DNA of 64,000 bases. Origin: Sphingomonas sp. Leaf357 (GTDB lineage Bacteria > Pseudomonadota > Alphaproteobacteria > Sphingomonadales > Sphingomonadaceae). Location of the stretch: assembly GCF_001423845.1 (NCBI RefSeq), contig NZ_LMPM01000001.1, forward strand, positions 1,567,395 through 1,631,394, in the 5' to 3' direction. The notes beneath the pieces are model-generated. The model was not told the DNA's origin, did no database searches, and worked only from the letters and a program-made list of their open reading frames with translations. Below, piece by piece: positions 54,534 to 56,577 of this stretch. A program made the position numbers and the translations under genes. The first letter of the stretch is position 1. Each line of letters begins with the position of its first letter.

Positions 54534-54872
54534 ATGAAGATCGTTTTCACGCTGGCGGCCGTGGTTGCCGGAACCCTCGTCACGCCCGCGTTCGGCCAGG
54601 AGATCACGCCGGCACCACGGAGCCAGATCGTCCGCCATGCCGATCTCGATCTGCGCCGGGCGAGCGATATTCGTCGGCTCGATCGCCGCATCGGCATCGC
54701 CGTCCGCGCCGCCTGCGGCACGGCATCCGATCTCGATCTGGCGGGGCAGAATGCGGTGACGCGCTGCCGAAAAGACACGGAAGCAATGCTTTCCGCTCGA
54801 CGGGCTCGGGCGATCGCCACAGCGAAAGGCGATACGAGCATGGCTCTTGCGGAGGTTCAGGACCGGCCATGA
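54534..54872 (+). CDS. UrcA family exported protein
   Basis: This is a 112-residue protein with a signal peptide (KIVFTLAAVVAGTLVTPAFGQ). The mature part matches the UrcA family: RHADLDLRRASDIRRLDRRI, then GIAVRAACGTASDLDLAGQN and CRKDTEAMLSARRARAIATA, with two cysteines likely in a disulfide. UrcA proteins are numerous in sphingomonads and caulobacters; their function is not known. It is divergent from a LysR gene and is followed by the sRNA candidate. Confidence 0.8.
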   Translation: MKIVFTLAAVVAGTLVTPAFGQEITPAPRSQIVRHADLDLRRASDIRRLDRRIGIAVRAACGTASDLDLAGQNAVTRCRKDTEAMLSARRARAIATAKGDTSMALAEVQDRP

Positions 54873-54924
54873 GGGCCTGGCAGCCGGAAAAGTATTGCTG
54901 CTACATTTCGCGACATTTATTCCC

Positions 54925-54953
54925 TTGAACCGCGAAATCCGCTCTCCTATATC
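54925..54953 (+). promoter_or_regulatory. Promoter of the candidate sRNA
   Basis: TTGAAC (54925-54930) and TATATC (54948-54953) are spaced by 17 bp, a strong sigma70-type match. Transcription would start near A54960, one base before the first hairpin of the candidate sRNA. Confidence 0.65.
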
Positions 54954-54959
54954 GGTTTT

Positions 54960-55064
54960 ACAAGGCTCGTGTCCCCCCCTTTCGCGGGCCTTGCGGTACG
55001 CTTTCAGCGTACCTCCTCCCTGAACCTTGGCCACCTCGTGCGTAAGCGCGAGGTGGTTTTTTTT
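54960..55064 (+). ncRNA. Candidate small RNA with CCUCCUCCC motif
   Basis: About 105 nt with three hairpins. Hairpin 1 is 54961-54969 with 54985-54993 (9 bp, one G-T pair) and has a C-rich loop with seven C residues. Hairpin 2 is GGTACGC (54995-55001)/GCGTACC (55007-55013) with loop TTTCA. It is followed by CCTCCTCCC at 55012-55020. Hairpin 3 is an intrinsic terminator (55031-55041 with 55046-55056) and eight T residues. The anti-Shine-Dalgarno CCUCCUCCC motif is a known hallmark of several alphaproteobacterial sRNAs, such as CcsR of Rhodobacter. The product probably pairs with ribosome-binding sites of target mRNAs. Confidence 0.72.
55031..55064 (+). terminator. Intrinsic terminator of the candidate sRNA
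   Basis: CCACCTCGTGC (55031-55041) pairs with GCGCGAGGTGG (55046-55056) with one G-T pair and loop GTAA, followed by T8 (55057-55064). It lies 3 bp past the end of the convergent amidohydrolase gene. Confidence 0.9.
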
Positions 55065-55066
55065 GG

Positions 55067-55927
55067 TTATTCCGCCGCCAGTGTCGCGGGCAGCGCGAGC
55101 GCCTCGTCGGCCAGTGCATCGATCATGCGCCGCAGCAACTTCGCCACCGCATCCAGCCCCGGCCCGGGTGCGTCGCGTGCCGCGTCCAGATACAGCGCGC
55201 GATCGAATTCCAGCTGCACCGCGTGCACGCCCTTGCCCGGCGCGCCGTGCCGATCGAGGATATGGCCGCCGGCATAGGGCGTGTTGATCGCGCTGCTCAG
55301 CCCGGCGCCGCGCGCCTCCGCTTCGAGCCGGTGGACGAACCGCCCCCCGGCCGATTGCCCGAACCGGTCGCCCAGCACGATCTGTGCGCCACTCGCCAGC
55401 GACGGCATCGAATGTACGTCGAGCAGCACCGCCACGCCGAACCGGCCCCGCGCCGCCGTCAGTGCGGCTCCCAGCGCGGCATGATAGGGGCGGTGATCCC
55501 CGGCAATGCGCGCCATCACCTCCTCGCCATCGAGCTTGCGCCGCCAGATCTCGCCCGCGCTGGCGATGCGTCGTGGGATCAGCCCAAGCCCGCCGCGCAC
55601 CTTGGCGGATTGCAGCCCCAGCGCGCGCCGGTCCGCGCCGCCGTCGATATGCGGATCTCGCTCGTTCTCGGCCCGGTTGAGGTCGATCCAGGCGCGTGCG
55701 CGGCGCTGCACCAGCATCGTCTCGCCGCCGATCGCTGCCAGCGCCAGCGTATCGATATGACGATCCTCCAACGGCCGGAGTGCCTCGACCGGCACGCGCA
55801 GCGCCGCCCGGAGCGCCAGCGGATAATCGCGCCCGCCGTGCGGCACGGACAGGATCACCGGGCTGGCCGGTTCGCTTGCGCCGTAAATGTCGAAAGAGGC
55901 TGGGGGATGGGAGGCGGGGGGGTGCAT
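55067..55927 (-). CDS. N-formylglutamate amidohydrolase family protein
   Basis: This 286-residue protein is related to N-formylglutamate deformylase (HutG-like). It has VILSVPHGGRDYPLALRAAL, ARAWIDLNRAENERDPHID (metal/substrate residues), GDHRPYHAALGAAL, and VLLDVHSMPSLASGAQIVLG, plus HAVQLEFDRALYLD near the end, which match the FGase family. No other histidine-utilisation gene is nearby, so the substrate could be another N-acyl amino acid. It is divergent from cpdR, a recurrent pairing in alphaproteobacteria. Confidence 0.87.
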   Translation of the reverse strand: MHPPASHPPASFDIYGASEPASPVILSVPHGGRDYPLALRAALRVPVEALRPLEDRHIDTLALAAIGGETMLVQRRARAWIDLNRAENERDPHIDGGADRRALGLQSAKVRGGLGLIPRRIASAGEIWRRKLDGEEVMARIAGDHRPYHAALGAALTAARGRFGVAVLLDVHSMPSLASGAQIVLGDRFGQSAGGRFVHRLEAEARGAGLSSAINTPYAGGHILDRHGAPGKGVHAVQLEFDRALYLDAARDAPGPGLDAVAKLLRRMIDALADEALALPATLAAE

Positions 55928-56042
55928 CTGCGCTACAGCCTATGCCCGTGGGCGTGCGGCTGCAAATGCTTACGTTGCGGCTGGAAATTCTTAAGGGCTT
56001 TGCGCATAAGACACGCACACGAAAAATCGGGTGTCGCATTAC

Positions 56043-56420
56043 ATGATCAGGATCCTGCTGGCCGAAGATGACCGCGTTATGCGCGAATATCTGACGCGCG
56101 CGCTCGAACGCTCCGGCTATGCGGTCAGCGCGGTGGATCGCGGCACGGCGGCGATTCCGCTGCTCGAGACCGAGCATTTCGATCTGCTGCTCACCGATAT
56201 CGTCATGCCCGAAATGGACGGCATCGAACTGGCGCAGAAGGCCGGCGAGATGGTGCCCGATCTGCGCGTGATGTTCATCACCGGATTCGCCGCCGTCACG
56301 CTGAAGGCCGGCAAGCAGATGCCGCAGGCGCGCGTCCTTTCCAAGCCGTTCCACCTGCGTGATCTGGTGCTGGAGGTGGACCGCATGTTCGAAACGGAGA
56401 GCGCCACCGGCGGCCTGTAG
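56043..56420 (+). CDS. cpdR: Single-domain response regulator CpdR
   Basis: CpdR, when unphosphorylated, primes the ClpXP protease at the cell pole for cell-cycle proteolysis in Caulobacter. The 125-residue product is a lone receiver domain: ILLAEDDRVMREYLTRALER with the acidic pair, the phosphoacceptor Asp52 in LLLTDIVMPEMDGIELAQ, the conserved Thr in VMFITGFAAVTL and the Lys in VLSKPFHLRDL. The phrase MFITGFAAV is characteristic of CpdR. ATG 56043 matches the family start; GTG 56031 would add four residues. CckA/ChpT would be the expected phosphate source. Confidence 0.9.
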   Translation: MIRILLAEDDRVMREYLTRALERSGYAVSAVDRGTAAIPLLETEHFDLLLTDIVMPEMDGIELAQKAGEMVPDLRVMFITGFAAVTLKAGKQMPQARVLSKPFHLRDLVLEVDRMFETESATGGL

Positions 56421-56502: not shown

Positions 56503-56577
56503 GGGCGTGTAGCTCAGTGGTAGAGCACTGTGTTGACATCGCAGGGGTCGCAAGTTCAATCCTTGCCACGCCCACCA
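56503..56577 (+). tRNA. tRNA-Val (anticodon GAC)
   Basis: The cloverleaf is complete: acceptor GGGCGTG/CACGCCC, D arm GCTC/GAGC, anticodon stem CTGTG/CGCAG with loop TTGACAT giving anticodon GAC, T arm GCAAG/CTTGC with TTCAATC loop, discriminator A and encoded CCA at 56575-56577. It is 75 bases long including CCA and is followed directly by a strong terminator. Confidence 0.96.

Follow-up and report, generated by a model that had tools for sequence, protein, structure and literature searches.

An FGase-linked small RNA of Sphingomonas, probably a lineage-specific alpha-r8 (suhB/mmgR) form with a C-rich 5' loop

In Sphingomonas sp. Leaf357, a UrcA family gene is followed by a convergent N-formylglutamate amidohydrolase (FGase) family gene, and the interval that separates the two raises the question of which kind of RNA gene, if any, it contains, and to which known lineage such a gene would belong. 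The window, i.e. the whole stretch of DNA that was analysed, has a length of 64,000 nucleotides. The initial annotation proposed an unannotated small RNA (sRNA) gene that has a promoter, ends in a terminator and contains two C-rich elements, placed it beside CcsR on account of an exact nonamer, and considered its genomic context to be new. The features of the locus are the following:

54534..54872, plus strand: UrcA family gene, upstream of the sRNA (TIGR04433, 53.1 bits, cut-off 25)
54925..54930, plus strand: -35 element TTGAAC, read directly, with a 17-base spacer to TATATC
54947..54953, plus strand: -10 element CTATATC, its TATATC part at 54948-54953
54960..55064, plus strand: sRNA gene, probable FGase-linked copy of the alpha-r8 (suhB/mmgR) lineage, with the 5' end placed from the promoter spacing
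54961..54993, plus strand: hairpin 1, 11 bp, with the 11-nt loop UCCCCCCCUUU at 54972-54982 (fold)
54995..55013, plus strand: hairpin 2, 8 bp (fold), counterpart of the weak hairpin of the alpha-r8 model (RF00519 alignment)
55014..55028, plus strand: UCCUCCCUGAACCUU, unpaired in the centroid fold, putative anti-Shine-Dalgarno seed
55029..55064, plus strand: intrinsic terminator, a 13-bp stem at 55029-55058 followed by the T tail, a likely Hfq site
55067..55927, minus strand: FGase family gene (PF05013, 201 bits), convergent, stop codon 3 nt beyond the T run
56031..56420, plus strand: cpdR, response regulator (NF046022 CpdR, 191.7 bits, cut-off 180)

The fold of 54960-55064 (plus strand) consists of three hairpins and an unpaired C-rich linker, and the elements proposed at the outset are all located where they had been placed: a run of seven C (54973-54979) lies inside the loop of hairpin 1, the nonamer CCTCCTCCC is present at 55012-55020, with its first two C paired within hairpin 2, and the GC-rich terminator with its T run is also picked up by a consensus scan; the second hairpin exists as well, with eight pairs in the fold and not the seven that had been counted. 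Among the six neighbouring proteins, Pfam recognises the FGase, a response regulator, a LysR protein, a protein of the lipoamide-dehydrogenase type and a phosphodiesterase, and finds no match for the UrcA gene product. The FGase scores far under the cut-off of the NCBIfam model hutG_amidohyd (85 of 279 bits). A tRNA gene is located downstream of cpdR, at 56503-56574 (Rfam, 68.6 bits).

The fold energy of the sRNA is -55.8 kcal/mol, against a mean of -31.8 kcal/mol for shuffled sequences (z = -7.38), and none of the 200 shuffles folds as low. Of 61 genomes searched by blastn, 37 belong to the same genus (the source genome counted), and 34 of these contain the sRNA, with E values no higher than 1.1e-7; the other three have a completeness of 83-86%. 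Outside the genus, the 24 genomes give no match that reaches E 0.001. All three hairpins are recovered by RNAalifold from the 34 orthologues and all three helices covary, with two-sided changes in 21 of the 34 pairs: 8/13 alignment pairs in hairpin 1, 6/8 in hairpin 2, where 100% of the cells are paired, and 7/13 in the terminator helix. Overall, 97.8% of the cells are paired, compared with 87.4% in shuffles and 34-55% when the structure is slid by 1-3 columns. The single-stranded parts are conserved in a different manner: CUCCUCCCUGAACCU is identical in all 34 orthologues, as is CTCCTCCCTGAACCT within the seed region, and the loop of hairpin 1 carries five to eight C, followed by TTTC, in every one of them. 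The hairpins and both C-rich elements are thus conserved across sphingomonads, as the initial annotation had asked to be checked, and by fold, covariation and orthologues the locus looks like a genuine gene for a small regulatory RNA, one that is strongly conserved in Sphingomonas.

With respect to the family of this RNA, a search in Rfam for a CCUCCUCCC-type family, as first suggested, has returned another family as its best match: RF00519 (suhB/mmgR), with 31.3 bits at 54991-55070 against a cut-off of 41 (E 7.2e-05, 301-base search). RF00519 is not reported at the sRNA by the scan at gathering threshold, and the window copy is not among the matches listed by a lenient RF00519 search of its own genome; other C-rich families stay far below their gathering scores (6C RNA, 19.1 of 47; ar7, 17.9 of 60; ar14, 12 of 58.8; anti-hemB, 19.1 of 49.5 bits). 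The alignment to RF00519 contains a hairpin, CUCCCU, A-ACUU and the terminator in the same order as the model, which is the alpha-r8 order of hairpin, C-rich linker and Rho-independent terminator. Members of alpha-r8 are further recognised by the 10-mer UUUCCUCCCU, unpaired and downstream of a weak hairpin (PMC12559287); here, the corresponding stretch is CCUCCUCCCU, identical at 8 of 10 positions, and it is located downstream of the weak hairpin, but its first two bases pair in hairpin 2. The score probably falls under the cut-off because the lineage has altered the 10-mer; orthologues from other species of the genus score 28-40 bits, none of them above the cut-off among the matches listed.

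The link to the family is carried by intermediate loci. A model built from the 34 genus sequences (R1) matches 54960-55063 with 102 bits and, at E 0.01, has matches in 180 of 246 genomes of the order. L153, L157, L159 and L163, four loci that come from its other families, score 55.6, 53.9, 59.5 and 58.1 bits to RF00519 and also match R1 with 37-45 bits, thereby bridging the Sphingomonas sRNA to suhB/mmgR. For four loci from other genera of its own family, RF00519 gives 38.0 and 32.8 bits for two, and no Rfam family matches the others (L113 and L118) at E 0.01.

The position of the gene points in the same direction. The alpha-r8 copy adjoins the FGase gene in most species (PMC12559287), so that the context described as new is the usual one for these sRNAs; FGase and cpdR are found within the fetched flanks of 31 of the 34 orthologues, while three (L010, L011 and L017) have no FGase within 1.5 kb. 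Among the 30 above-cut-off suhB loci listed, an FGase gene lies within 1.5 kb of 12/16 outside the genus and of 0/14 inside it. The genome itself has two further suhB copies above the cut-off, C2:432200-432279 (53.6 bits) and C1:261061-261137 (47.9 bits); of the nine RF00519 matches listed in it, the six viewed are these two paralogues and four below the cut-off that resemble ordinary terminators. The paralogues have the core GGCATCCTCTCCTAAAACTTT in common and also the upstream sequence CGCACTTGCAC, in which they differ from the promoter of the window copy.

The top Rfam match, the bridging loci and the FGase-cpdR locus together identify the sRNA as the usual-locus alpha-r8 copy; since its score lies below the cut-off and the exact 10-mer is absent, we class it as a variant derived from alpha-r8 rather than a strict RF00519 member. 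It is a known kind of sRNA at a known locus, in a lineage-specific form below the standard annotation cut-off. With good confidence, we regard it as the FGase-linked alpha-r8 sRNA (MmgR/SuhB/SisA lineage) of Sphingomonas, with a predicted length of about 105 nt, its own promoter and an intrinsic terminator, which would act as an Hfq-assisted anti-Shine-Dalgarno repressor in trans.

The characterised relatives are similar in plan and different in their 5' part. MmgR of Sinorhizobium meliloti (RF00519) is laid out in the same way, with a hairpin, a C-rich unpaired stretch, A-ACUU and a terminator in succession, and belongs to a family whose usual neighbourhood, next to FGase, is shared by the Sphingomonas sRNA (PMC12559287); the latter differs by an additional 5' hairpin with a C-rich loop, by the altered 10-mer, by its Rfam score and by its predicted length, of about 105 nt as opposed to the 77 nt given for MmgR in the accessible part of PMC8401924. 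As the Rfam model covers nothing 5' of hairpin 2, and in view of the 77 nt of MmgR, the 5' hairpin is an extra element. The alpha-r8 siblings SisA-D of Caulobacter crescentus likewise occur as several copies per genome (three here, the window copy included), SisA adjoining FGase, and likewise have an anti-Shine-Dalgarno seed, which is UUUCCUCCCU in SisA-D and CCUCCUCCCU here; the accessible sections of PMC12559287 mention no C-rich 5' hairpin for them. SisA represses a TonB-dependent receptor mRNA through this seed, as established by compensatory mutations, and also represses four further reporters (PMC12559287). SuhB of Sphingopyxis granuli TFA, which also comes from a sphingomonad and bears the name of the same family, is described in the available text of PMC6563040 as binding the thnR leader and lowering its translation with Hfq. 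SuhB is reported to be 61 nt long; it would therefore be without a 5' hairpin of the Sphingomonas kind, unless it is processed.

The FGase neighbourhood also suggests a different reading, in which the sRNA is mainly a cis-antisense element: the FGase mRNA would read through the sRNA gene and pair with its product from end to end, as a decoy or for the control of FGase. The two genes are convergent in 124 of the 124 loci that have both (of the 153 loci examined, 9 went unread by the script and 20 lacked an FGase gene in their stretch; the loci are not all independent, some of one genome being counted under two ids), the distance from the T run to the FGase stop codon has a median of 11 nt, is at most 63 nt in 117/124, and becomes a one-base overlap in 23. 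On the minus strand of the 31 FGase-linked genus orthologues, no terminator-like site occurs in the gap or inside the sRNA, and one occurs within 280 nt beyond the sRNA in 5/31; a similar script detects the terminator of the sRNA itself in 31/31. The FGase mRNA thus probably runs through the sRNA gene, or else Rho ends it, and it may be antisense to the sRNA. Nevertheless, antisense pairing alone would not conserve structure, and the combination of an invariant unpaired seed with freely covarying stems favours pairing in trans; orthologues persist away from FGase (L010, L011 and L017); and in the family genomes without an R1 match (20 listed of 66) FGase is present in 20/20 and the sRNA is recognisable in one, so that FGase does not need the sRNA. 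We therefore consider a mainly cis-antisense role to be improbable, and retain the alpha-r8 repressor acting in trans. Because the convergence with FGase is fixed, the cause of the synteny can be put to the test.

A second alternative is the assignment that was made first. CcsR represents a type of sRNA with several hairpins, each presenting CCUCCUCCC in its loop, and is linked to a DUF1127 gene. One CCTCCTCCC and one C-rich hairpin loop are indeed present here, but the nonamer occupies a position between hairpins and starts with two paired C, and its exact form CCUCCUCCC occurs in 11 of the 34 orthologues only; in the genome it has 21 copies, compared with 27 for the reversed control, and is not over-represented. 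The genome count and the orthologues lead us to reject the nonamer as the functional unit; what is conserved is CUCCUCCCUGAACCU. Among the matches that the Rfam searches gave, none belongs to a family of the CcsR name, and none of the six neighbouring proteins has a DUF1127 domain. The Rhizobiales sRNAs SmelA075 and SmelA099, which have an anti-Shine-Dalgarno C-rich stretch as the Sphingomonas sRNA does, carry similar CCUCCUCCC motifs in each of three or four loops, according to the part of PMC3927594 that is accessible, whereas the Sphingomonas sRNA has one unpaired linker and a pure C run in a single loop. Membership in the CcsR type is rejected on the linker position, the poorly conserved nonamer and the neighbourhood, and has in our judgement very little probability.

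The promoter-like elements are kept in the orthologues: a TTG-type -35 is present in 34/34 (exact TTGAAC in 15/34), the -10 is CTATAT in 11/34 and a related hexamer in the remainder, and at least 9 of the 12 positions of TTGAAC/CTATAT are matched in 30 of the 34 upstream stretches, compared with 3% of base shuffles, although this consensus is derived from the same sequences. A strict E. coli sigma-70 consensus scan does not pick up this promoter, which diverges too much from that consensus. In 28/34 orthologues, 7 nt lie between the end of the -10 and hairpin 1, a constant spacing by which hairpin 1 should form the 5' end of the primary transcript. That the region holds no RNA regulator, and is instead a short reading frame (a 58-aa plus-strand frame at 54847-55023 and a 53-aa minus-strand frame overlap it) or the bare terminator of the UrcA gene, is scarcely credible in view of the stem covariation, the indels in stems and loops, the conservation of promoter-like elements in the interval from UrcA to the RNA, and the presence of the RNA where the 112-aa UrcA is unrecognised by tblastn (UrcA in 2/34 stretches, although a fast-evolving small protein could escape).

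The C-rich 5' loop was initially taken for a layout without described counterpart; the loop itself is conserved and is additional to the RF00519 model, while its novelty can be stated in weaker terms, as a part that may be undescribed. Our literature search has found no description of the Sphingomonas RNA or of the 5' hairpin; a 2016 phylogenetic survey of the alpha-r8 family, reportedly by Lagares, Roux and Valverde, and a 2018 SuhB paper, said to be by Garcia-Romero and others, are known from reference lists only and may mention the hairpin. A paper on the Zymomonas Zms sRNAs has offered no usable link to the motif, FGase or suhB.

Beyond the genus, we have compared 37 loci that represent other genera of the family, chosen from a longer R1 list and mostly one per genus; as R1 includes the loop and the selection was by hand, these loci lean towards having a C-rich loop. 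A run of at least three C upstream of hairpin 2 is found by script in 36/37 and by eye in the remaining one (L149), a run of at least four by script in 29/37, and the loops are mostly CCCCUCAU, CCCUCAU or CCCCCCUUU; of 12 loci that belong to other families, 7 have a run of three C there and 2 a run of four. The exact 10-mer UUUCCUCCCU, on the other hand, occurs in 0/34 genus orthologues, 1/37 other-genus loci and 12/12 loci of other families; together with the C-run counts, this indicates that an altered linker seed and a C-rich loop largely occur together in Sphingomonadaceae. The association is not strict, since 5 of 70 named loci have the exact 10-mer as well as a C run. Of 80 named loci, taken from at least 120 stretches, these 70 match R1, with Sphingomonas, Sphingobium, Novosphingobium, Erythrobacter and Qipengyuania among them, and 10 are chance pattern matches (Bacteroidota, Clostridia-type and Fermentibacteraceae MAG titles). 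The named loci were chosen by a pattern that demands a C-rich loop, hence their 70/70 C runs are no evidence for it; FGase lies within 700 nt in 61/70, and 9 have no FGase match in the stretch examined.

Some loci depart from the common plan. In L149 (G140), the C-rich hairpin 1, the CUUCCCUGAACC seed and the terminator are kept and hairpin 2 is absent by eye; in L347 and L350 (genus g39), CCCCCC persists next to FGase, in L347 within what is by eye the loop of a hairpin, and the CUCCCUGAACC seed is gone, which gives the impression that the 5' hairpin has outlived the seed.

The C-rich loop could be a second seed, a contact for Hfq or another protein, or a stabilising cap. It is invariant while its stem changes, which argues against a pure cap, and a second contact site seems to us more likely than a mere cap. 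More tentatively, we may combine these observations with the convergence: Sphingomonadaceae would have made a one-seed alpha-r8 sRNA into a two-seed one, the loop (in Sphingomonas CCCCCCUUU, but CCCCUCAU in several of the other genera) having its own targets and being re-tuned alongside the linker (UUUCCUCCCU to CUCCUCCCU), with the FGase mRNA as an antisense decoy, so that the free level of the sRNA would depend on FGase transcription. We hold this joint reading to be possible, and on balance doubtful.

For the linker seed, Hfq-assisted anti-Shine-Dalgarno repression is the most likely mode of action, judged by descent and anatomy. An RNA of about 105 nt would be transcribed from its own promoter and ended by the intrinsic terminator; the exposed UCCUCCCUGAACCUU would, with Hfq, pair to the purine-rich ribosome-binding sites of several mRNAs and repress their translation, by analogy to SisA in Caulobacter and SuhB in Sphingopyxis, and the invariant GAACCU 3' of the seed may give specificity past the ribosome-binding site. 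Hfq is encoded in the genome, as two Hfq domains in a single 253-codon open frame (C1:2521070-2521501).

Candidate targets were sought with a pattern for extended perfect pairing upstream of start codons, which consists of TTCAGGGAGG followed by ATG within 3-14 bases. The pattern has no match in the genome itself; over 41 same-genus genomes it matches 58 times, in 25 of them, and the reversed control matches 44 times. All of the 20 rows viewed out of these 58, some of which share one site, are inside a dispersed palindrome, TCCCYTTCAGGGAGGRG, with a frame of fewer than 100 codons behind the ATG in 15 of them; some other rows are the minus strand of the sRNA gene itself. We take none of these matches as a target. 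The palindromic repeat TCCCYTTCAGGGAGGRG recurs, as a dispersed element, in some Sphingomonas genomes (sites in G010, G018, G026 and G034).

For the annotation of the family, the alpha-r8 copy at the usual locus is the one that the Rfam cut-off misses here, while the two other copies are caught; surveys of alpha-r8 that are based on the cut-off would thus give a wrong picture in Sphingomonas. Three suhB copies have been annotated via Rfam in Novosphingobium PP1Y, as stated in the accessible portion of PMC4059872. For the biology of the organisms, the alpha-r8 members studied so far influence carbon storage, uptake and catabolite repression, processes of relevance to pollutant-degrading and plant-associated sphingomonads, and the differing C-rich loops offer a natural experiment on how an sRNA acquires a second targeting element.
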